36,039 nucleotides of DNA from Fimbriimonadaceae bacterium. GTDB lineage: Bacteria > Armatimonadota > Fimbriimonadia > Fimbriimonadales > Fimbriimonadaceae. Numbering within the stretch: the first letter of the stretch is position 1; the number at the start of each line of letters is the position of its first letter. The translations under genes were made by a program, and so were the position numbers. The notes beneath the pieces were generated by a model, which made no database searches, had not been told where the DNA came from, and saw nothing but the letters and a program-made list of their open reading frames with translations. Positions 2,686 through 31,253 of the stretch are shown here, piece after piece. The stretch covers positions 1 through 36,039 of the forward strand of contig JAHBTC010000016.1 in NCBI GenBank assembly GCA_019638835.1. Direction: 5' to 3'.

Positions 2686-3969
2686 CTATGCGGCGCGTCG
2701 AGAAGGATCGACGGCCGCATTTTGTAGGCCGACTTCGCGAGCGGATCGCAAAAGCTCCTTCAGACTACGCCCATCGTCGGGAGCGACTGCATGTACGACC
2801 GACACCTTGACGGGAGTTTGAGGACCAAGTCGTCGAGCAGCCCAAGACTCGAAGCGGGTCACGAGGCGTTCGCGAACGACAGCGACACTTGGGCCGGTTG
2901 CGGGCAAAATGATCCCGAAGCCGTCCTTTCCATACCGGCACACGATATCTAGAGCGCGAGTCTGTCCCTTGATCAGGTCTGCGGCATCGGCGAGGATGTC
3001 ATCAACGCTTTGGGCGCCGAAGAATCCGGCCAAACGATCGAGCCCCTCAAAGCGAATGAACATTGCCGAGACTACGCCACCATTCGCAACTGCGCGGTGG
3101 ATCTCCTCGGTAAGTCGGCGTCGGAAGTATCGGTCTCCATAGACGCCCGTGACTTCGCATGATGTTTCGGGATCGTCACCCGTTCGCAACCTCATTGCGG
3201 CTTCCTCTGCTTGTTGCCGCGTTAGAATCCTTCGTAGTTTGCTCAGGGATTGCCGAAGAATGTGGGACACGTAGTTGCACGAGATGCCAAGTTGGTTCGC
3301 AATTTCCGTTTGGTTCAGCGACTCAAAGTGAAAGAGCATCAGCACATCCCTTTCAAGGTCTCGGAGTTCTGACATCGCGTGCTCAAGCATCAGTCGGTCT
3401 TCGACACTGAGTTGATCTACCGAGAAGTCGGCTGCGTCGAGGCGGTCAACGTCGCTCTCGCCTTCCTCATCGGCCGTCGGAGTGGCATCAAGGGACGCCA
3501 CGCGGAGCAGATCATGCGTTTGAAGAACGTCGGTCACCGTATCTTCATCGAGCCCAAGATGCTCAGCGATTTCGCGTGCCGTCGGCACCCGGCTCAGTTC
3601 GGCTTGAAGCGCAGTTGCTCCGCGATTGATGCGCGTACGCAATTCTTGTAGCCACGCTGGTGTGCGGATCGTCTGCGATTTGTCTCGCAAATAGTGCTTG
3701 ATTTCGCCTGCCACAAGATGCGTTGCGTACGTATTGAAACGAACGCCTGCATCCGGGTCGAACTTACTGAGAGCGTTGAGCAAACCGATGTAGCCGACTT
3801 GCGTCAGATCATCGACAGGCTCAAGGCCCGCGAACTTGCGAGCCGTGCGCTCGACGAGCGATGCGTAGTGAACGATAATCAGGTCTTTGAGATCGGCGCG
3901 CGGGTTGCGCACGTAATCAGCGACCAAGTTTTCGCCTTCGTTACCACTTTGACCGAGGTTTTCCGTCAT
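2686..3969 (-). CDS. Sigma-70-family RNA polymerase sigma factor fused to a degenerate GGDEF domain
   Basis: A 427-residue two-part protein. The N-terminal 255 residues are a group 3 (FliA/SigB/WhiG-like) sigma factor. Region 2 is at about 30-100, including DDLTQVGYIGLLNALSKFDP. Region 3 is at about 105-165 (PTAREIAEHLGL). Region 4 is at about 190-250, ending in the helix-turn-helix TEIANQLGISCNYVSHILR. The C-terminal part (about 270-405) aligns with a GGDEF domain: TGVYGDRYFRRRL, then RALDIVCRYGKDGFGIILP. The GGDEF signature reads GKDGF (347-351) and the metal-binding DxD-F region reads RFEGLD, so cyclase activity is unlikely. The RxxD inhibitory-site motif (RALD, 338-341) is kept at the canonical distance. 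I infer that the domain binds cyclic di-GMP or another ligand and gates the sigma factor. A purine-rich GGAAGG precedes the ATG. It lies downstream of pilC. Confidence 0.9.
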   Translation of the reverse strand: MTENLGQSGNEGENLVADYVRNPRADLKDLIIVHYASLVERTARKFAGLEPVDDLTQVGYIGLLNALSKFDPDAGVRFNTYATHLVAGEIKHYLRDKSQTIRTPAWLQELRTRINRGATALQAELSRVPTAREIAEHLGLDEDTVTDVLQTHDLLRVASLDATPTADEEGESDVDRLDAADFSVDQLSVEDRLMLEHAMSELRDLERDVLMLFHFESLNQTEIANQLGISCNYVSHILRQSLSKLRRILTRQQAEEAAMRLRTGDDPETSCEVTGVYGDRYFRRRLTEEIHRAVANGGVVSAMFIRFEGLDRLAGFFGAQSVDDILADAADLIKGQTRALDIVCRYGKDGFGIILPATGPSVAVVRERLVTRFESWAARRLGPQTPVKVSVVHAVAPDDGRSLKELLRSAREVGLQNAAVDPSRRAA

Positions 3970-4064: not shown

Positions 4065-5270
4065 TTACTCTTGGACTGCGTTGACCATCTTGAAGATGGG
4101 CGACATGACCGAGATTGCGATGAAGCCGACAACGACGCCGAGGAAGATGATGAGCGCGGGCTCGATCATCGAGGTCAATCCTTTGACCGTCGATTCCACT
4201 TCGCTGTCATAAAAGTCGCCAACTTTGACGAGCATTTCGGATAGACGACCGGTTTCCTCACCGACGTCAATCATTTGGGTGACCATCATCGGGAATAGCC
4301 CCGAATCGGCAAGGGGTTGACTCAATTTGTTACCTTCACGGATGCTGAGTCGAGTCTTGTCAATCGCGCCGATAAGCACCGCGTTTCCGAGCGTTTCGCC
4401 TACGATTTCAAGGCTACGCATCATAGGGACACCCGAATTGATCAATGTCCCAAAGGTGCGGCAGAACCGAGCCACGCTCATCTTGAGCGCAAGCTCGCCA
4501 ACGATCGGAATCTTGAGGCGGATGAAATCCAGTTGATAGCGGCCTTGCGGGGTCTTTCCGTAGACCTTCATGCCGAAGATGAACCCACCGATCAGCATGA
4601 GGATGACCCACCAGAACTTTTGCATGAAGTCGCCCATCGCAAACAGAGCGGCTGTGATGGGAGGCAAGTCCACAGACATGCCGTCAAAAATTGCCTTGAA
4701 GCGGGGAAGCACAAAGGAAAACAGTGCGAACAACATGACCTGGGAGAAGATCAATACCAAGACCGGGTACATCATCGCGCCCTTGATCTTTGCCTTCACG
4801 TCAGCTTCGTATTCCAAGAACCCGGAGAGGCGGTCCAAGATGAGATCAAGAATTCCCCCTAGTTCTGCCGCGCGAATCATGTTCACGTATAGCTTGTTGA
4901 ACACGTGCGGGTGCTTTGCCATCGCTTCATTGAGGGTCAATCCACCCTTAACGTCCACCGTGATTTGGCGCACCGCCTCCTTGAGCGGAATGTCTTTGGT
5001 TTGTTCGGCAAGGATCTCCAGGCACCGTAGAATCGGAATGCCCGCATCAATCATCGTGGCGAACTGACGAGAGAAGATGACCAGCGCTTTCGGCTTCATC
5101 TTCTTTTGGAACATGGAGTTCTTCGTGGCCTTCTTGGTTTCCTTGATCTCAAGGACCTGAAGGTTTTGATCGCGAAGTTTGCCAAGGACCAAGGCTTCGT
5201 TATCGGCTTCGACAAACGACTTGATTTGGCGTCCCGTCGAGTCGAGGGCCGTGTAGGCGAAATACGGCAT
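4065..5270 (-). CDS. pilC: Type IV pilus / type II secretion inner-membrane platform protein (PilC/GspF)
   Basis: A 401-residue protein with the usual family length and layout. A short N-terminal region beginning PYFAYTALDSTGRQ is followed by two copies of the T2SSF domain (about 70-195 and 270-395). Each copy has the typical FSRQFATMIDAGIPILRCLE or FCRTFGTLINSGVPMMRSLE opening. Three hydrophobic segments lie at about 170-195, 220-240 and 375-395. The protein forms the platform on which the PilB ATPase acts; a pilB gene is at 29354-31093 of this window. The tail ISVMSPIFKMVNAV is typical of PilC. The gene is followed by a hairpin and by the sigma-GGDEF gene. I call pilC rather than gspF because the pilB homologue and pseudopilins here belong to a pilus-type set, but the distinction is not certain. 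Confidence 0.93.
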   Translation of the reverse strand: MPYFAYTALDSTGRQIKSFVEADNEALVLGKLRDQNLQVLEIKETKKATKNSMFQKKMKPKALVIFSRQFATMIDAGIPILRCLEILAEQTKDIPLKEAVRQITVDVKGGLTLNEAMAKHPHVFNKLYVNMIRAAELGGILDLILDRLSGFLEYEADVKAKIKGAMMYPVLVLIFSQVMLFALFSFVLPRFKAIFDGMSVDLPPITAALFAMGDFMQKFWWVILMLIGGFIFGMKVYGKTPQGRYQLDFIRLKIPIVGELALKMSVARFCRTFGTLINSGVPMMRSLEIVGETLGNAVLIGAIDKTRLSIREGNKLSQPLADSGLFPMMVTQMIDVGEETGRLSEMLVKVGDFYDSEVESTVKGLTSMIEPALIIFLGVVVGFIAISVMSPIFKMVNAVQE

Positions 5271-5412
5271 GAGTTCTGGCTTCTCCAGGCACCCCTATCA
5301 AGGAGGCCCAAAGAGATTGTCGGAGCACCGAGCCCCGATCCTCTAGGGTGCAAGTACCGTGTTTCTCGCAGTCCTGGGCCGCTCACTCTGCCAGGTTCGT
5401 CTCTTCCTCGCC

Positions 5413-8999: not shown

Positions 9000-11027
9000 T
9001 TACGAGCGACGCGCGAGTTGGATCAGTGCATCCGCGACGCCCTTTCCCCGTGGTTCACTCGCCATGACATAGTCATTTCGGATCGAGCCGGGGTCAAGAC
9101 AAAGTCCGGTTTCCCAGTCATCAGGTGTCAGCACCGCTCCAGTTCCTTCTCCAACGCTTAGGGCCATGCGTTGGGTGTAGCGGTCGCCAGCCCAAGAGAT
9201 CACCGGAGTTCCCATCCAAAGCGCTTCTGCAGTCGTCGTGGCTCCTCCGTAGGGGAATGGATCCAGGGCGAAGTCAATGTCGTTGTAGGCGGCCAGGTGT
9301 TCGTCGAATCCCTTGTTGCCCCAGAACGCCACTCGACTCTCATTGAGTCCCGATCCACCGAGGGCCTCCAGAACACGGTTACGGAAGCCTTCGCTTTGAG
9401 CCGCGAAGTTCTTCAGAATCAATCGGGCACCGGGAATAGGTGCGACGAACTCACCCCATTCCCGAAGGCACAGGTTGTTGAGCTTTGCGGGGTTGACGAA
9501 CGCACCAAAAGTGATGTGCCCGGTCTCGTTTCGCGGTGGCGCGGCAAGCGAAACGTCAGGAAGTTCCAAAAGTGGGTAGACCGATTGGTCAGCGCGGACA
9601 ACCCGTTCTGTAAAGTGGGCGTCGTCCTTGGCCGCGATTACGTCGGCAAGAAAAGCGTCCATCGTCGGGATTCCCGTTGTGCCGCTGAATCCCAGATAAC
9701 TGACTTGCACCGGAGCGATTCGCGCGGCGAAGAGGTCTAGGCGGTGCCCGGAGGTGTAACCGTTGAGGTCGACCGCAAGGTCAAAGTTTTGCTGACGAAG
9801 CCACTCCGTCTGCGATTCTGGGCTACCACCCGGCAATATCTCAAAAGAGGTTGCGCCCGATCTCAATCGTTCGGTCCAAGAGTCGCGGCGTTCGGACAAC
9901 GAAATGAGATGTACCGTGGCATCTTCGGGCCACGCTTCCAAAACGCCCCGCAGAAACTGCCCAACGGGGTGCCAGCGCAGATCGGACGAGAGAATGGCAA
10001 TCTTCGGCTTAGCGCTAGATTGGCCCCACTCAAACTCTGTCTCTGCTCCTTGACTCGTCGCGGCAATGATTGCGTCATTTTTCAGATCATCAGCAGAAAC
10101 CATGGGACCATACTGCCGAGCCATCATCCGGTTGCTGACGTAAACGGATTCACTTGGATTGAGCGTAATCGCCGTGTCGAAGGCATCAACGGAGTCTTCG
10201 GGTTGACCGGCTCCCATCAATACGTTTCCGAATCCGGCCCATGCTTCGGGAAGCATCGGATTTCGCTCCAAAACCGCATTGAGTAGATTCGCGGCCCCAT
10301 CCATGTCGCCCACGGCTCGCAAGGAGTTGCTCAAGTTGACCTGCGCCTTCTCGTGATCAGGGGCGATTTCGAGTACGGTTCGGTAGCACTTCTGCGCCTC
10401 ATGTGGCTTGTCCAAGGCGTCGAGAGTGACCCCCTTGGTGTTCAAAGCCGGAGTCAAGTTTGAATCAAGGAGAAGCGCCCGCTCTGATGCTTCCAAGGCG
10501 GAGTCGTATAGATGGAGTCCAAAGTAAACGTCCGCAAGATTTCCCCATGCGGGGGCGAAATCAGGCTGAAACTTGATCGCGTTCTCATAGGCTGAGACGG
10601 CGTCCATCGGTTCTCCTTGAGTCCGTAATGCGTTGCCGAGATTGAACCAGTTCATGGCGTTTGTGGGGTCTGACTTCAACCCCTCGCGGCAGGCTGCGGC
10701 CGCTTTGTCCACCCAACCGCAATCCATGCAGGCAGTCGCTAAGTTCCCCCATGTAGGTGCATGGTCGGGATCCACGCGCAACGCCTCTGTAAAGAACTTG
10801 AGCGACTCTTGAGCTCGACCCTCTTGCAGCAGTGTCACTCCCGTGAGTTGGAGGGCATCGAAATGCTCCGGCTGTTGCATCAAAGCGTTTGCATAGCTGT
10901 CTCTGGCGGTCTCAAGATCGCCTTGCTGATGCGCGATGAGCCCTGTTTGCACCCACTGATCACTTGATTGGATCGGCGCAGTGTTGTTCTGGGCGAATTG
11001 TCTCGTTGCTTTCCTCAACGCGCTCAT
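9000..11027 (-). CDS. TPR protein with O-GlcNAc-transferase (GT41/SPINDLY-like) domain, copy 1
   Basis: A 675-residue protein. The first half (about 27-310) is a run of tetratricopeptide repeats with the A-x-x-x-P-x-x-x-x-A-W-x-N-L spacing (for example HAPTWGNLATACMDCG). The second half (about 335-675) is the GT41 catalytic region. HPVGQFLRG carries the catalytic-region His, and DLNGYTSGHRLDLFAARIAPVQV is the conserved acceptor/UDP segment. FGAFVNPAKLNN contains the UDP-binding Lys, and DPFPYGGATTTAEALWMGTPV is the UDP-sugar motif. Such enzymes add a sugar, GlcNAc in characterised members, to Ser/Thr of proteins in the cytoplasm. Its start overlaps the stop of a homologous upstream gene in an ATGA arrangement, so the two are a coupled tandem duplication. 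The target is unknown. Confidence 0.87.
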   Translation of the reverse strand: MSALRKATRQFAQNNTAPIQSSDQWVQTGLIAHQQGDLETARDSYANALMQQPEHFDALQLTGVTLLQEGRAQESLKFFTEALRVDPDHAPTWGNLATACMDCGWVDKAAAACREGLKSDPTNAMNWFNLGNALRTQGEPMDAVSAYENAIKFQPDFAPAWGNLADVYFGLHLYDSALEASERALLLDSNLTPALNTKGVTLDALDKPHEAQKCYRTVLEIAPDHEKAQVNLSNSLRAVGDMDGAANLLNAVLERNPMLPEAWAGFGNVLMGAGQPEDSVDAFDTAITLNPSESVYVSNRMMARQYGPMVSADDLKNDAIIAATSQGAETEFEWGQSSAKPKIAILSSDLRWHPVGQFLRGVLEAWPEDATVHLISLSERRDSWTERLRSGATSFEILPGGSPESQTEWLRQQNFDLAVDLNGYTSGHRLDLFAARIAPVQVSYLGFSGTTGIPTMDAFLADVIAAKDDAHFTERVVRADQSVYPLLELPDVSLAAPPRNETGHITFGAFVNPAKLNNLCLREWGEFVAPIPGARLILKNFAAQSEGFRNRVLEALGGSGLNESRVAFWGNKGFDEHLAAYNDIDFALDPFPYGGATTTAEALWMGTPVISWAGDRYTQRMALSVGEGTGAVLTPDDWETGLCLDPGSIRNDYVMASEPRGKGVADALIQLARRS

Positions 11028-12751
11028 GGGGCTACCTCCAGCGCATGGAGAAATGCATCGACAAACCCAGATGCATCAAAAATGTGACTGCTCTCGACAT
11101 CTGGAATCAATTGACGGCGGATTTCGGTGAGCGCATCGGGGTCGCGCACGAGTGACTCGGCGATGCGCACGAAGTCTGTCTCTGACTCGGCTACCCATTC
11201 GGAGTGTCCAATGGCATCCAAGAAGGAAGCACTCATTCTCGAGGCGTATCGGTCACCGCACAGGGTTACAACAGGAATGCCTGCTTTGAGCAAATCAAGG
11301 GTCGTGGTCGCGCCCGAGTACGGATAGGGATCGAGAGCAATATCCACCTTTCCGTAGTCTGATTCTCGTCCCGCCGAGTCTGTCCAACCCTGGAATAGGA
11401 TCCGCGCCGGTTCAATTCCGAATTCTCCCCAAACTTTCGTCCAGTGGGCACGCGTCTCTTCATCGTCAAAGACCCGGTACTTCATACGAAGTCTGCTTTC
11501 CGGTACGGAGTGCAAAACAGATGCCCAGAGTGCGCGGGTTCGGGGACCGATCTTTGCCGGGTTGTTGAAGCTTCCGAATGTGATCGGTGCGCCAGAGGCG
11601 GATGGGGCTGGGCTCGCGACTGCGTTACCAGCAAGATCCGCTAAGAAGAGCCCGTCGAGGGTAAGCGTTGGCTCAAGCCCGGCGTTCTCGGCTGAACGCG
11701 TCGGTACCATGTTTGATCCCACAATCCATCCGTCTATCGCGGGAATGCCGGTAGGGGCACTGTAGCCAAGCCACGTGTATTGTCGAGGTGCAACCCTTTC
11801 CGCGAATAAATCGAGTCGGTGATGGGAGGAGTGACCGCTAAGGTCAATCGCCACGTCAAGACAAAGCGCGCTTACCGAGTCAAACGCTTCATCGGTCGAT
11901 TTGCCCCAGACGTCAATGACAGCGAACGCGTGTGACTCCAACAACTTAGTGATCTCATCGTCTGCTGGCTGATTCTTGATCAATGCAACCTGAACGCCTC
12001 GCAAAGCCAGTTCCGGGAGAATCGCGCCGACAAATCGACCGACAGGGTGTCCCCGAAAGTCACCAGATACAAAACCGATTCGCTGGACCTTCTCAGACTT
12101 TTCAATGGCAATTGACTCTGGCTGCGCCCGCCCCCAGGCGGCTCCCAATCCCGCAAGTACCTCGGGCGAAAGCGAGTCTACATACTGCGCAGTGAACAGT
12201 ACATTGCTCCAACACTCCGGGTGTTCTGGTTGTAAGTGAAGCGCGTTATAGAAGGCCGAAAGCGCGGCATCTGATTCGCCCAGGTCTAAGCGTGACGCAC
12301 CCAGATTTCGCCACGCTTCGGCATTGTTTCGGTCGAGTTCGGTAGCGCGTTCGGCGGCAGTCACGGCGTCTCCAATCCGGCCAACGGCGCGGAGACATGC
12401 CGCCCAATTTGACCACGCATTGGAGTTCTCATTCGCTCGAAGCACAGCCTGCTGGCCGGTAGCGACGCCATCTTCAAATCGCTCCGCGATCCGTAAAGCG
12501 TTGGTCAGATTCACCCAAGCGTCTGCGTTCGTGGGCTCCAATTCGGTGACTCGCTCAAGATAAGGGAGACCCACGGCGAACTTGCCCAATTGGACGGCTA
12601 TGATTCCCAGACCCATGAGGGCGTTGGGTTCGTCGGGCCACGACCGCAACACCGCCTCATAGGCGGACTGGGCGGCATCTAGCCGTCCCGCCTGGTGGTG
12701 TTCGACGGCTTTCTTTAGGCTCGTTTCGGGGGCAAAGGCTCCAGCGCGCAT
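11024..12751 (-). CDS. TPR protein with O-GlcNAc-transferase (GT41/SPINDLY-like) domain, copy 2
   Basis: A homologue of the next gene with fewer repeats (575 residues from the ATG at 12751). TPR units span about 10-195 (LKKAVEHHQAGRLDAAQSAY and following). The GT41 region spans about 225-575, with HPVGRFVG, DLSGHSSHHRLDLFAERVAP, FGSFNNPAKIGP and DPYPYSGATTTLDLLKAGIPV. All residues used to recognise the family are kept, so it should be active. The frame is open upstream to 12841, but that stretch would run into the divergent methyltransferase gene and does not look like TPR sequence, so I chose 12751. It is translationally coupled to the second copy. Only 23 bases separate its start from that of the divergent gene. 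Confidence 0.86.
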   Translation of the reverse strand: MRAGAFAPETSLKKAVEHHQAGRLDAAQSAYEAVLRSWPDEPNALMGLGIIAVQLGKFAVGLPYLERVTELEPTNADAWVNLTNALRIAERFEDGVATGQQAVLRANENSNAWSNWAACLRAVGRIGDAVTAAERATELDRNNAEAWRNLGASRLDLGESDAALSAFYNALHLQPEHPECWSNVLFTAQYVDSLSPEVLAGLGAAWGRAQPESIAIEKSEKVQRIGFVSGDFRGHPVGRFVGAILPELALRGVQVALIKNQPADDEITKLLESHAFAVIDVWGKSTDEAFDSVSALCLDVAIDLSGHSSHHRLDLFAERVAPRQYTWLGYSAPTGIPAIDGWIVGSNMVPTRSAENAGLEPTLTLDGLFLADLAGNAVASPAPSASGAPITFGSFNNPAKIGPRTRALWASVLHSVPESRLRMKYRVFDDEETRAHWTKVWGEFGIEPARILFQGWTDSAGRESDYGKVDIALDPYPYSGATTTLDLLKAGIPVVTLCGDRYASRMSASFLDAIGHSEWVAESETDFVRIAESLVRDPDALTEIRRQLIPDVESSHIFDASGFVDAFLHALEVAP

Positions 12752-12774
12752 GAACTCTGCCGAATATTGTCGGT

Positions 12775-13548
12775 ATGGCGGCCCCGCAAAAACACTGGGA
12801 TGCGACTGACGATGCAACAATTGCTCAACTTGAATCGACAATTCAGGGTCATCCCTTTTGGTATCACAAGATCCAACTCCCAGGTGGTGTCGTCACTCCT
12901 GGCTGGGCACCGATTGCTCCGGAGGCGTATCGAATCCCCGACGACCTTTCGGGAAAGAGAGTGCTTGACGTTGGCGCGTGGGACGGGTACTGGACCTTTG
13001 AGGCCCTTCGGCGAGGAGCATCGCAAGTCGTCGCGATTGACGACTTCAGCGACTATTTAGGGTTACTCGAAAACCAGGATCGAAGCGCATGGGCGACCTT
13101 TGATCTCTGCCGAGAAGCGCTAGGGTACAGCGACGAGCAGTGCCAGCGAATCGAGATGTCGGTCTACAACGTCAACCCTGATCAACTGGGCAAGTTTGAT
13201 TGCGTTTTCTTCTTCGGCACTCTCTACCACTTGCGGTACCCATTACTTGCTCTGGACATGCTCTCAAGTGTTTGCGATGGCGACATCTTCATTGAGACGG
13301 CGGTTTGTGATGATTTCAGTCCGTACCAAGGTGGCTTCGGTCACGGATACCCTGGGGGCCAAGCCGTGATGGAGTTCTATCCGACAACCGAGTACGGCAA
13401 TAACACCACCAATTGGTGGGCGCCAACGACGGCATGTCTCGGACTGATGACGATGGCGGCGGGTTGGCCCGACACCGACGTTTGGAAGCTTATGGATAAC
13501 CCACCTGAACTGCCATATTGTCGGGGCTTCGCCCACGGCCGCCGCTAA
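12775..13548 (+). CDS. CmoB-like class I SAM-dependent methyltransferase (DUF1698 type)
   Basis: A 257-residue Rossmann-fold methyltransferase. SAM motif I is VLDVGAWDGYWTFEALRRGA (about 63-82), followed by VVAIDDFSD with the acidic residue for the ribose. DCVFFFGTLYHLRYPLLALD (about 142-161) is the motif IV/V region typical of the CmoB/DUF1698 group. CmoB itself carboxymethylates wobble uridine using carboxy-SAM, but this protein lacks the long CmoB N-terminal part, and several short relatives act on sugars or other small substrates. Being divergent from two GT41-like glycosyltransferases, it could modify the same glycan or protein; that is inference. Its stop shares bases with that of the convergent membrane protein gene (CTAA at 13545-13548). 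Confidence 0.8.
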   Translation: MAAPQKHWDATDDATIAQLESTIQGHPFWYHKIQLPGGVVTPGWAPIAPEAYRIPDDLSGKRVLDVGAWDGYWTFEALRRGASQVVAIDDFSDYLGLLENQDRSAWATFDLCREALGYSDEQCQRIEMSVYNVNPDQLGKFDCVFFFGTLYHLRYPLLALDMLSSVCDGDIFIETAVCDDFSPYQGGFGHGYPGGQAVMEFYPTTEYGNNTTNWWAPTTACLGLMTMAAGWPDTDVWKLMDNPPELPYCRGFAHGRR

Positions 13549-22821: not shown

Positions 22822-23226
22822 ATGTACCGAACGGTCGCAATTGCGTCGCTTCTCTCCGTTCTTTCATTGATTGGATGTCAACCCGGTCTTACGGAGAAGG
22901 ACATTGTCGGCACATGGAATGGTCAACTCTCGGCTGCTGACATCGCCCCTGCCGACGTGCCCCAGCAATTCAAAACCATGCTTGCCGGACAAACGCTTGC
23001 GTACAACGTGACTTTCAACGAAGACAAAACGTGGTCGGTGCCTATCTCATTGGGTCAGTTCTTCAACACCACCGTCTCGGGAACGTGGTCGCTTAAGGAA
23101 GGCAAAGTCGAAACGGTTACGACTACGGCTGGGGGTGAAACAACGCTCTGGACGGTCGCACCCGATAAAAAGTCGATTACAGGGATGATTCGGAACGCAA
23201 GCGTCACTCTTGCCAAGTCACCCTAG
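22822..23226 (+). CDS. Small secreted lipoprotein of unknown function
   Basis: A 134-residue protein starting at the ATG at 22822; a GTG directly before it is less likely. Residues 1-18 are a lipoprotein signal peptide ending in a lipobox LSLIGC, with Cys19 as the lipidated residue. The mature part begins [12 protein letters not shown] and contains a beta-rich pattern ([31 protein letters not shown]). It resembles the small lipocalin-like or copper-resistance-type lipoproteins that open with a GTW strand. I assign no function. Its stop is shared with the convergent M48 protease gene (CTAG at 23223-23226). Confidence 0.8.
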
Positions 23227-24179: not shown

Positions 24180-24995
24180 TTAGCTTGCGAGTCGCGTACC
24201 GTCTCGGCTTGCTTGGGTCGTGATTCGTCTATAGAAATTGCCTTCAACATGCTCTAGGTTCAGTTCGATGGGATCGGAGATGATCTCGGTGCGACCGAGA
24301 AAAAGCACTCCGCCTGGCCGGAGAGCGAGCGCAAGCCGCCGGTACACGTCGCGTTGGACGTCGGCCGAAAAGTAGATCGCGACATTACGGCATGCGACCA
24401 AGTCAAATTCGCTTTGCCGAAATGGGCTAAGTACGTCTAGTTTGCAAAAAGTGACCGTAGATCGAATCAAAGGGGACACCGACCATCGCTCTTTCTCGCG
24501 GCGAAGGTAGTTACGGCGATATTCGTCTGGGATCTTTGCGGCTACTGAGTCAATGAGCCAGCCATCCTTTGCGCGCTTGAGCGACCCACTGTGGATATCT
24601 GTAGCAAGAATCTGGTGGGCACCTTCGAACGAGTAGTCCAGCATCATCGCGAGCGAGAATGCCTCTGCCCCATGACTACACCCTGCACTCCATACTCGCA
24701 GAAACCTGTTCTGTGCAACCAGTGAGGGAAAAATTCTTGACTTCAAGATGCCCCACTCTTGCGTGTCCCGGAACATCTCGGTGGAGGCCACAAGAAGCAG
24801 GTCCGCTACTTCGGCGGGCCGAGCGGGATTGCCCGATAACCATTTGGTAAGTTCGGCAATGGTCTTGCAGTGAGTTTGCTTCAGCACCCGCGCAATACGG
24901 GGCTGAAGCAATCGTTGGTCGTACCCCAGAAGGTCAAGACCGAGTTGTTTGCTGAGTTCTGAGAGAATAGAGTCTGGTTCAGCGGAACTAGGCAA
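24180..24995 (-). CDS. cheR: CheR-family protein-glutamate methyltransferase
   Basis: A 271-residue chemotaxis methyltransferase, which uses SAM to methylate glutamates of chemoreceptors. The N-terminal helical domain (about 1-75) is followed by the SAM domain. WSAGCSHGAEAFSLAMML is motif I, ATDIHSGSLKRAK is motif II, and FDLVACRNVAIYF followed by LRPGGVLFLGRTE are later family motifs. The more usual motif I is C-S-T-G-E-E-P-Y; here it is C-S-H-G-A-E-A-F, a moderate deviation. It overlaps the HDOD gene by eight bases and sits in an operon with cheD. No receptor, CheA or CheW gene is nearby. Confidence 0.9.
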   Translation of the reverse strand: MPSSAEPDSILSELSKQLGLDLLGYDQRLLQPRIARVLKQTHCKTIAELTKWLSGNPARPAEVADLLLVASTEMFRDTQEWGILKSRIFPSLVAQNRFLRVWSAGCSHGAEAFSLAMMLDYSFEGAHQILATDIHSGSLKRAKDGWLIDSVAAKIPDEYRRNYLRREKERWSVSPLIRSTVTFCKLDVLSPFRQSEFDLVACRNVAIYFSADVQRDVYRRLALALRPGGVLFLGRTEIISDPIELNLEHVEGNFYRRITTQASRDGTRLAS

Positions 24996-25851
24996 CCATC
25001 TCTCCGACGGATTGGGTTTGCGCCCAGAACTCGCGCTCTAACTCGTCGGCAACGTAGTCCAGATCTTCAGGAGTAAGCCCGAGGCGTAAGAGCGCGCTAT
25101 CGCAGAGCGCGTACTTCAGTCCATCCACGCCAAGGCCAAATCCCAGTGCCATCGTGAGGTAGTTCCCCACGTGGACCGCGTCCGCAACAAGTGAGGGTGT
25201 CTCCGCTCGGTCAGGTTCATGATGGAACCGTGCTGAATCGACCATCTCTTGCGGAAGGTTCCATTTTTCCGCAAGGTGTCCCCCAACTTGTCCGTGATCG
25301 AAACCGAGCACGGTTCTTTCGGCTTCAACAAACGTCCATCCGTTGAGGTCGGCCAATCGGGCGAGTGCATCCGCCTTGCGATCAAGTGACGCATTGAGAG
25401 CGAGTTTGCCAATGTCATGGAGCAACCCTCCCGTGAATGCAACGTCAGGATTCAGTCGACCGCTCTTCTGTGCGACGTACTGGGATCCAAGTGCCGTGCT
25501 GTGAGAGTGTTGCCACAACATGAGCGGGGCGAGCCCATACCCTTCGAGAGGCTTGCTCAACCACGGATAAGTCGCTGCGACCATCGCCAGGTTACGGACG
25601 CACCGTAAACCGAGAATGACGACGGCATCTTGGATCGTGTTCACTTTACGACTCAGTCCGTAGTACGCGCTATTGGAAAGCCGAAGCACGCGGGACGAGA
25701 GTGCCGGGTCTTGCCCTAGCCAGTGGCTCAACCGAGCCGCCGTCGTATTTGAGTTGTCTGCCTCTCTCATCACACGCAAGGCGACCGACGACATCACCGG
25801 GAGGTCGGACGTCTGCTGAATAATGTCTTCAATCGTAATCTGCGTGGGCAT
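24988..25851 (-). CDS. HDOD-domain signalling protein
   Basis: A 287-residue protein that is almost entirely one HDOD domain (about 15-215), a relative of HD hydrolases lacking their catalytic metal site. Family features are LPVMSSVALRVMREADN, LSHWLGQDPALSSRVLRLSNSAYYG, VILGLRCVRNLAM, GGLLHDIGKLALN and LGFDHGQVGGHLAEKWNLP. It still carries an HDIGK and an H-G-Q-V-G motif, typical of HDOD. Such proteins link chemotaxis, motility and cyclic di-GMP circuits. The ATG at 25851 follows the cheD stop by two bases, so I prefer it to the upstream in-frame ATG at 25890. Confidence 0.88.
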   Translation of the reverse strand: MPTQITIEDIIQQTSDLPVMSSVALRVMREADNSNTTAARLSHWLGQDPALSSRVLRLSNSAYYGLSRKVNTIQDAVVILGLRCVRNLAMVAATYPWLSKPLEGYGLAPLMLWQHSHSTALGSQYVAQKSGRLNPDVAFTGGLLHDIGKLALNASLDRKADALARLADLNGWTFVEAERTVLGFDHGQVGGHLAEKWNLPQEMVDSARFHHEPDRAETPSLVADAVHVGNYLTMALGFGLGVDGLKYALCDSALLRLGLTPEDLDYVADELEREFWAQTQSVGEMVA

Positions 25852-25853
25852 CT

Positions 25854-26366
25854 TTAACCAGCCTTGGCGACCTTTTCGCCGAATGTGCAAAGGACACTGG
25901 TGCCCTCCGCGAGCCGAGTGACCTTGATCGTGCCGGCTGGCAAGTCAAGGGTAAGACTCCGCCCCTTAGTTCCCCCTAAGTCGTGGGCTTCGGGTCTCAA
26001 GCCCAACTTTGCCAGTTCTTGAATCACCGCCTCCCCGTTGCGGCGACCAAAATCCGGCCCTGAACCAGATCGGAAACTAAAGATCTGGGCTCCCCCAACC
26101 AGTGCGATCCGGATTTCGTCTCGTGAAGCGCCAAGTTCTTCAACCTGTCGGAGGAGTTCTGGCACTCCCGTCGTTGCGTACTTGCCGGGACGGTCATCGT
26201 CGCGTTCCGTGAACTTCGCGGGCAACATGATATGGGCGACACCAGCGACCCTAGCGATTGGGTCGCACGCGATCAAAACGACGCAACTGCCGACACTCTT
26301 ACATCGAAAAGTGCCCGGACCGTGCATCGTCTTGATTTCGCCGACTTCCACATCATAGGTTCTCAT
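25854..26366 (-). CDS. cheD: Chemoreceptor glutamine deamidase CheD
   Basis: A 170-residue CheD, which deamidates glutamines of chemoreceptors. The active-site Cys28 is in VGSCVVLIACD and His45 in AGVAHIMLP, at positions one residue later than in Thermotoga CheD. The third catalytic residue, Thr21 in that protein, aligns with Cys22 here. ALVGGAQIF and GGTKGRSLTLDLPAGTIKV are typical of the C-terminal part. The start at 26366 is fixed by a GGAGGG ribosome-binding site seven bases upstream; an earlier in-frame ATG at 26396 lies ahead of that site. Confidence 0.9.
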   Translation of the reverse strand: MRTYDVEVGEIKTMHGPGTFRCKSVGSCVVLIACDPIARVAGVAHIMLPAKFTERDDDRPGKYATTGVPELLRQVEELGASRDEIRIALVGGAQIFSFRSGSGPDFGRRNGEAVIQELAKLGLRPEAHDLGGTKGRSLTLDLPAGTIKVTRLAEGTSVLCTFGEKVAKAG

Positions 26367-26383
26367 GGATAACCCTCCGCTGG
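26367..26383 (-). promoter_or_regulatory. Ribosome-binding site deciding the cheD start
   Basis: The minus strand reads GGAGGG, seven bases from the ATG at 26366. This near-perfect Shine-Dalgarno match excludes the longer reading from 26396. Confidence 0.65.
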
Positions 26384-26410
26384 GAGCGATCCACAACCGT
26401 GTCGGCAGCC

Positions 26411-29353: not shown

Positions 29354-31093
29354 TTAGGCGGCAAGCTTGAGCGGAGTCGGCTTCAGAAGTCGCTCGAAGG
29401 CGATCAACCGCATGGCTTCTTCCAACGTGGTCTGCCCCGCGAGTACTCGCTCTAGTGCATCCTCTTGAAGAGAACGGAATCCGTAGTCTTCGGCAGCAAG
29501 CTTGATTTGTTCAACGCCCGCACGATCAGCGATGAGGCTCGCCACCTCACTTGTCACTGGCAACACCTCGTGGACGGCCTGCCGTCCGGAATAACCGGTT
29601 CCGTAGCATTCGTTACAGCCATTGGCGCGCCATACGGAACTCACTCCTTCAGCGCCGAAGTAATGGCGCATCAGAATCTGTTCTTCGTCTGTCGGCTTAT
29701 CTTCTCGCTTACAGTCCGGGCAGAGGTTTCGAAGCAATCGTTGAGCCGTGACACCGATGAGCGAAGAACTCAACAGGTAGGGATCCACGCCTAAGTCGAG
29801 AAGGCGGGGCACAGCACTCGCCGCATCATTACAGTGCAACGTAGACAACACGAGGTGTCCGGTCATTGCGGCCCGGACGGCGGTTTCGGCCGTTTCTAGA
29901 TCGCGAATCTCGCCCACCAGGATTACGTCCGGGTCTTGGCGGAGGATTGCTCGCAACTGCTTCGGGAACGAGACACCAATCGATTCGTTGATTTGCGACT
30001 GGTTGATACCGTCCAATCGATACTCAACCGGGTCCTCAACGGTCATCACGTTGTTCGCGGTGTCTTTGATCTCTTCTAGCGCCGCGTAAAGGCTCGTTGT
30101 CTTTCCGCTTCCGGTTGGTCCGGTCACCAGGAAGAGTCCGTAAGGTCGTCGGATGAGCGACTGGAACATCTGGAAGTTATGTAGCGTGAATCCGAGTTCT
30201 TCCATACCCTTCAGGCCGATGGCTTGGTCAAGAACTCGGAGAACGATCCGGGCGCCATGTACGTTCGGAACTACGCTTACGCGGACATCAACCGACTGGC
30301 CATCAAGATCAACCGTCATGCGACCATCTTGCGGGTGTCGTTGCTCAACGATGTCCAACTCGGCCATGATCTTGAGGCGCGTGGAAAGCATCGGCAACAG
30401 TTCATCTGGAAGGTCGCGTAGTTTGACAAGACGACCGTCAATGCGGTACCGAACATCGATCCGATCCATGCGTGGCTCAATGTGAATGTCACTGGCATGC
30501 ATGCGGATGGCGTCGCTGATGATCTGGTTGACAAGATTGACAACGGGTCGCGATTCTTCGTCCGCGAGATTCGTATGCTCGTCTCGCTCCGGACCTCGAT
30601 CCTTGATCTCGTACTCGGCCATGGCCTTTTTGACCACGTGATCCATGTTGGCGTTGACTTTGCGTCGATTTTGCGCCCACTGTCGGACTTGCGACATCAT
30701 ACGTGACTCATCCACCAGTACGGGCTCAACCCGCATCTTCACCAATTGGTGAATAAAGTCGAGCGCAGAAGTGTCAAGTGGATTGACCATTCCGAGCACC
30801 AGCAAGTCGCTTCGCTTTTGGATGGGCAAGACTTGGTATGACTCACAGACATCCATCGGGATGAGTTCTGCAAGTTCTTGCTTCGGCGGGTCGCGCCGTA
30901 AATCCCACGCCTGAACGCCAATCTGCGTAGCAAGAGCCGTGAGAAGTCGTGATTCATCAATCACACCCATGCGAACCAAAATGGATCCGATGGGTGCAAA
31001 ATTTCGCTGTTGCGTCGCGATGGCACGTTCAAGTTGCTCATTCGTGACGAGTCGTTGTTCTAAGAGAATATCCCCGATTTGTTTTCGCCGCAT
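29354..31093 (-). CDS. pilB: Type IV pilus assembly ATPase PilB (GspE family)
   Basis: The motor that drives pilus extension. From the ATG at 31093 it has 579 residues. The N-terminal MshEN/GspE-N domain begins RRKQIGDILLEQRLVTNEQL. The ATPase core shows Walker A VTGPTGSGKTTSLYAALEE, an Asp box around TVEDPVEYRLDGINQSQIN and Walker B DPDVILVGEIRDLETAETA, with the His box GHLVLSTLHCNDAASA. A zinc-binding C-x2-C...C-x2-C module (CPDCKRE...CNECYG) follows, as in PilB. A GTG at 31126 with AAGGA just before it is an alternative start. Its partner platform protein is at 4065-5270. No other pilus assembly gene lies beside it. Confidence 0.94.
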   Translation of the reverse strand: MRRKQIGDILLEQRLVTNEQLERAIATQQRNFAPIGSILVRMGVIDESRLLTALATQIGVQAWDLRRDPPKQELAELIPMDVCESYQVLPIQKRSDLLVLGMVNPLDTSALDFIHQLVKMRVEPVLVDESRMMSQVRQWAQNRRKVNANMDHVVKKAMAEYEIKDRGPERDEHTNLADEESRPVVNLVNQIISDAIRMHASDIHIEPRMDRIDVRYRIDGRLVKLRDLPDELLPMLSTRLKIMAELDIVEQRHPQDGRMTVDLDGQSVDVRVSVVPNVHGARIVLRVLDQAIGLKGMEELGFTLHNFQMFQSLIRRPYGLFLVTGPTGSGKTTSLYAALEEIKDTANNVMTVEDPVEYRLDGINQSQINESIGVSFPKQLRAILRQDPDVILVGEIRDLETAETAVRAAMTGHLVLSTLHCNDAASAVPRLLDLGVDPYLLSSSLIGVTAQRLLRNLCPDCKREDKPTDEEQILMRHYFGAEGVSSVWRANGCNECYGTGYSGRQAVHEVLPVTSEVASLIADRAGVEQIKLAAEDYGFRSLQEDALERVLAGQTTLEEAMRLIAFERLLKPTPLKLAA

Positions 31094-31253
31094 AGCCGAA
31101 ACCCCATGCGGATGTTCGGGCAGCACGTTCCTTACGCCAGACGCAAGATATACGGGGTTTTTCGGATTCGTTGTTGATTTGGCATGATCGCAGGGCCCTA
31201 CCTGAACGTGCCGCCTCCGTGACTTTCAGGCTCGGTGCGACTGCAGATTGGCG

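Follow-up and report, generated by a model that had tools for sequence, protein, structure and literature searches.

PopA and PelD are receptors of cyclic di-GMP (c-di-GMP) in which a GGDEF fold has lost catalysis and kept the RxxD inhibitory site (I-site), and the output of PopA runs through ClpXP proteolysis, in trans for CtrA (effector passages of the 2025 review PMC12564702). Among the receptors of this type named in those passages none is a sigma factor, PopA being a response regulator, and no fusion of a sigma factor to a GGDEF domain is named there. In Actinobacteria, c-di-GMP controls the group-3 sigma factor WhiG, the ligand lying between WhiG and the separate coiled-coil anti-sigma factor RsiG; in Rubrobacter the WhiG-RsiG regulon is that of type IV pili (PMC8325347). 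PleD, an active, feedback-inhibited diguanylate cyclase with receiver domains, holds a c-di-GMP dimer between two GGDEF domains, the first contributing R359, D362 and R390 and the next R313 (PMC7288161). The secondary arginine may sit elsewhere in other cyclases, as discussed in the DgcR paper (PMC8041772).

The gene described here, from a Fimbriimonadaceae bacterium, encodes a group-3 sigma factor fused to a GGDEF domain that appears catalytically dead. We consider it quite probable that c-di-GMP bound at the I-site of this domain gates the sigma factor directly. The fusion has in common with PopA and PelD a GGDEF fold devoid of catalytic signature and a retained RxxD, but its effector part belongs to RNA polymerase itself and it carries a degron-like tail of its own. 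As in the WhiG-RsiG system, a group-3 sigma factor would be under the control of c-di-GMP; the predicted binding site is, however, in cis and of another fold, and the sigma part is nearer to SigB/F/G than to WhiG, a separate WhiG/FliA-type sigma factor being encoded in the same genome. PleD is the closest solved structure, and each of its four I-site residues has a counterpart in the fusion, which lacks the receiver domains of PleD and, judged by sequence, its activity. Each part is already known; what appears new is that receptor and sigma factor are united in one protein, and that this protein has been retained across the phylum with its I-site spared. A search of open-licence papers returned none describing a sigma-GGDEF fusion.

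The fusion gene (P0001) lies on the minus strand at positions 2686..3969 of the window, the whole stretch of 36,039 nucleotides that was analysed. The preliminary description of this DNA had claimed one uninterrupted frame of 427 residues with sigma regions 2, 3 and 4 followed by a GGDEF-like domain. A single minus-strand ORF was indeed recovered at this place, and its product matches Sigma70_r2 (residues 32-98), r3 (109-170), r4 (198-246) and GGDEF (273-412), each above the Pfam gathering score. The arrangement is far from accidental: all four domains are matched in the 29 divergent members scanned, and 39 of 41 close relatives have the frame at full length. The sigma part (residues 30-250; 3220..3882, minus strand) has the make-up of group 3 of the sigma-70 family, with regions 2, 3 and 4 and no region 1.1, region 2 starting at residue 32. 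The nearest NCBIfam subfamily is SigB/SigF/SigG (TIGR02980), which scores 189 bits for a cut-off of 234.35, while the FliA/WhiG subfamily (TIGR02479) reaches 121.9 bits for a cut-off of 189.6. Being closest to SigB/F/G yet below its cut-off, the sigma part is therefore taken as a group-3 sigma factor on a branch of its own. Three further sigma-70 proteins of the same genome (2.74 Mb, 98% complete) match the fusion, namely a FliA/WhiG-type factor (L002), a RpoD/SigA-like one (L003) and RpoD (L004).

The carboxyl-terminal domain (residues 268-412; 2734..3168, minus strand) belongs to the GGDEF superfamily, with a PF00990 score of 63.2 bits for a cut-off of 23.8. Structure prediction agrees with the fold assigned to it at the outset: the AlphaFold model of the domain alone has a mean pLDDT of 90.8, and its best solved match is PleD with bound c-di-GMP (2wb4_B; VIA Z 19.6 over 159 residues, 3.0 A), other diguanylate cyclases being also found among the best structural matches. 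The motifs listed in the preliminary description, GKDGF (347-351), RFEGLD (306-311) and RALD (338-341), are all present at these positions. GKDGF (2917..2931, minus strand) is a degenerate signature, and an intact GG[DE]EF occurs in none of 118 distinct fusions. The metal site is lost as well, RFE (306-308; 3046..3054, minus strand) standing in place of D327-I-D329 of PleD. Conservation was ranked over the 144 columns of the domain after down-weighting similar sequences. The equivalents of PleD D327, D329 and N335 rank 121, 108 and 124, the first two being columns 306 and 308 of the fusion, and those of G369, E370 and E371 rank 107, 112 and 52. An aspartate is found at the D327 equivalent in 11/118 fusions and an asparagine at the guanine-binding N335 equivalent in 4/118, and the active-site region is partly deleted in several families. 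The fusion has neither the intact GG[DE]EF nor the metal-binding aspartate of a diguanylate cyclase; judged by these motifs, the domain is catalytically dead and no longer makes the messenger.

The residues that bind c-di-GMP in PleD had the opposite fate. The phmmer alignment to PleD pairs R313, R359, D362 and R390 with R292, R338, D341 and R368 of the fusion, and RAIDLPCRYGGEEF of the fusion aligns without gaps to RALDIVCRYGKDGF of PleD, with identical spacing between RxxD and the signature. This bears out the initial claim that RALD (2947..2958, minus strand), which holds the primary I-site residues R338 and D341, lies at the RxxD place with normal spacing. Two arginines left unnamed at that time are also conserved: R368 (2866..2868, minus strand), equivalent to R390, the third primary I-site residue, and R292 (3094..3096, minus strand), equivalent to R313, the secondary arginine provided in trans in PleD. 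R338 and D341 are each kept in 117 of the 118 fusions (both together in 116), R292 is an arginine in 117 and R368 in 113. D341 and R338 head the conservation ranking of the domain (ranks 1 and 2), followed by R292 (rank 3) and R368 (rank 5), in a set of sequences whose mean pairwise identity is 31% in the GGDEF domain versus 52% in the sigma part.

As a control we took active GGDEF domains of Fimbriimonadales, 33 distinct sequences in all. In these the active site is intact in 33/33, RxxD (in a count whose pattern did not presuppose the aspartate) is found in 23/33 and the R292 equivalent in 5/33. Ranks 1, 2, 3 and 5 out of 144 correspond to a hypergeometric P of ~3e-7, and the presence of all four I-site residues in 110/118 fusions versus 2/33 active domains to a Fisher P of 2e-22, values to be read as guides rather than exact because the sequences are related. 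A chance occurrence of RxxD was rejected on the basis of the column ranks and of this control. Ordinary GGDEF domains, as the control shows, often carry RxxD too, and its conservation in the fusions could therefore be in part inherited. Among Fimbriimonadales orthologues RxxD is present in 60/60. The proposal that the I-site is kept while catalysis is lost is hence supported phylum-wide, and the fusions display the sequence pattern of degenerate GGDEF receptors of the PopA/PelD type. The contrast between the two sites is what would be expected if selection had dropped synthesis and kept binding.

The fusion is widespread in the phylum. A profile search over 291 Armatimonadota genomes, in which a strong full-length relative was defined by E 1e-80 or better and the table was counted by hand, found it in ~97 of 113 Fimbriimonadales genomes and in ~88 of 178 others. 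A scan of contigs by peptide patterns, with a reach limited by these patterns, returned only records that their titles assign to Armatimonadota. In a maximum-likelihood tree built from the sigma domains alone, all fused copies group in one branch (support 100/98) that stands apart from unfused sigma factors; four shortened copies are nested inside it. The simplest reading of this tree is a single early fusion in the phylum, inherited vertically with few losses. The GGDEF domain is absent or reduced in L244, L246 and L247 (families f6 and f17) and in L243 (family f30), and L245 is a degenerate copy that kept its length but not the RxxD arginine. The whole fusion is missing in eight genomes of genus g19 that are at least 98% complete, close relatives in the same genus retaining it. 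Some genomes therefore dispense with the protein or with its GGDEF domain, a point that weighs against direct gating by c-di-GMP.

The gene stands next to pilC, as had been claimed from the sequence. The pilC product is the inner-membrane protein F of type IV pilus and type II secretion systems (4065..5270, minus strand; T2SSF match, 1.3e-62), encoded 95 bp upstream of the fusion on the same strand, and the two genes probably form one operon. This neighbourhood is conserved in 45/45 assessable Fimbriimonadales loci; in other families, 21 fused loci extend far enough to be judged, and 12 of these show it. Loci with a lost or decayed GGDEF domain have pilC adjacent in 0/5 cases, including the shortened fusions L243, L244, L246 and L247. 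Two genomes of family f5 encode a diguanylate cyclase with intact GG[DE]EF divergently from pilC (L106, 7857-8828, plus strand; L107, 3196-4077, minus strand), and in a third genome the coordinates place a PilZ match just upstream of pilC. Matches to GGDEF, HD-GYP and PilZ above cut-off are found in all 25 genomes searched, and to EAL in 11 of them; other GGDEF proteins of the genome under study bear an intact GG[DE]EF. With such cyclases and HD-GYP and PilZ proteins, these cells probably both make and remove c-di-GMP. Farther along the window, a PilB-type ATPase with a MshEN domain is encoded at 29354-31126 (minus strand), its product ending in -LAA. The MshEN domain binds c-di-GMP in MshE, and this PilB is likely another c-di-GMP sensor for pili. 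The window also carries clustered CheR, HDOD and CheD genes (24180-26396, minus strand) and two adjoining long repeat proteins (9000-12841, minus strand) that, judged by eye, may consist of TPR plus O-GlcNAc-transferase-like domains.

Other explanations can be given for the spared I-site. The domain could be a protein-protein or dimerisation scaffold in which R292, R338, D341 and R368 serve salt bridges or contacts with a partner rather than c-di-GMP binding. The charged neighbours R285, E288 and E289 are highly conserved too and could mark a protein interface, and so is R345, which is structural in all GGDEF domains (33/33 active ones). We nevertheless find a scaffold unlikely: the active domains of the control set include many that lack R292 or RxxD, hence the fold does not need these residues, and the conserved set coincides with the four residues by which PleD is known to contact its ligand. 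Quite improbable, too, is that the sigma factor reads another signal because its site binds some other nucleotide, such as (p)ppGpp, pGpG or a different cyclic dinucleotide. What is conserved is the site alone, from whose sequence the ligand cannot be read, and crystal structures of PleD contain (p)ppGpp in addition to c-di-GMP (entries 9g85 and 9g86). Against this, RxxD with two arginines makes up the site of the c-di-GMP dimer in PleD, and enzymes of c-di-GMP are encoded in all 25 genomes searched.

It is very hard to credit that RxxD is a leftover of phylogenetic inertia in a decaying domain. The few lineages that lost the whole domain and the degenerate L245 would fit such a decay, which would not, however, spare exactly the ligand contacts while erasing the active site, nor leave four columns near-invariant at so low a mean identity over 118 sequences. 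The chance that the domain has kept diguanylate cyclase activity by means of an unusual active site is practically nil. Its similarity to PF00990 above cut-off would speak for this, but an active cyclase was rejected on the absence of the intact signature from every fusion, the rarity of the D327 and N335 equivalents and the deletions seen in several families pointing the same way. We thus hold to the reading that this gene-switching sigma factor probably reads c-di-GMP directly, without a go-between.

A conserved motif precedes pilC. GCCGAYAAT, matched at 8/9 positions or better, is found before pilC in 25/42 loci (mean of 1.6 and maximum of 6 in shuffles), a count that is descriptive because the motif was noticed by eye in the same data. 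Its background upstream of other genes is 9/136 in sense and 5/136 in antisense orientation, and it usually lies 43-72 nt before the pilC start codon. The copy of the present locus, TCCGACAAT (5316..5324, minus strand), lies 54 nt upstream of pilC. The motif resembles the -10 element of WhiG/FliA promoters, GCCGATAA (PMC8325347). Upstream of pilC, there is no clear -35 element and almost no match, with two mismatches at most, to the full FliA/WhiG and SigB consensus sequences. Perfect copies of GCCGAYAAT are also seen before unrelated genes at window positions 22911 and 24134 (minus strand). The box may be read by the fused sigma factor or by the separate WhiG-like one. The idea that it proves autoregulation was rejected because the FliA/WhiG-type factor L002 could read it.

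The fusion ends in a degron-like Ala-Ala (2689..2694, minus strand), placed behind a variable linker and unstructured in the full-length model. The end is exactly -AA in 57/60 Fimbriimonadales fusions and -VA in the other three; among other ORFs of the same loci -AA is found in 2/197. In a larger set, 68/73 Fimbriimonadales fusions and 15/16 of the sister clade have it, and it is absent in deeper families. In these genomes the tmRNA tags terminate in -AYAA, -AFAA or -ALAA (e.g. ANDNFAYAA), and ClpX is encoded in the genome under study (603.9 bits). Those of L112-L131 are very short, with 8-9 residues (ANNNFAYAA, ANQYAYAA). Since the tail matches the local tmRNA tags and ClpX is present, a ssrA-like degron is its natural reading, and the conserved -AA would probably act as a ClpXP degron.

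If the fusion behaves like PleD, one protomer would contribute R338, D341 and R368, and a second one R292, to the binding of a stacked dimer of c-di-GMP. As R292 would come from the second protomer in the geometry of PleD, dimerisation bridged by the ligand is the most economical output. When c-di-GMP is abundant, two sigma factors would be cross-linked and kept from core RNA polymerase, and its fall would free active sigma factor. We lean slightly towards this sign, with the bound form inactive as in WhiG-RsiG, the opposite sign being nearly as probable. ClpXP could remove the fusion via its -AA tail, possibly hidden or exposed according to the ligand state, adding turnover as a second layer of control, to be compared with PopA acting in trans for CtrA. 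The full-length model has a pTM of 0.41 and an uncertain arrangement of domains, therefore no route of coupling from the GGDEF domain to the sigma part is readable in it. The switch in promoter recognition suggested in the preliminary description is one output among several, and no more likely than dimerisation, sequestration or ClpXP turnover. We infer that the regulon likely comprises the pilC operon of the fusion itself, together with further genes for type IV pili or attachment.

With less assurance than for direct gating itself, we favour the broader view that these proteins form a phylum-wide class of sigma factors acting as c-di-GMP receptors by means of a dead GGDEF domain, in which ligand-bridged dimerisation sets activity and the ClpXP tail perhaps sets lifetime, so as to control type IV pili without an anti-sigma factor. 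It leads to direct predictions for four point mutants and for a change of two residues in the tail. It would also provide an entry to gene regulation in the Armatimonadota, for which we found none described in this respect. Known control of sigma factors by c-di-GMP runs through a separate protein, RsiG in the case of WhiG. If our reading is correct, the built-in receptor would be the shortest path from second messenger to promoter choice, retained as this poorly studied phylum diversified.
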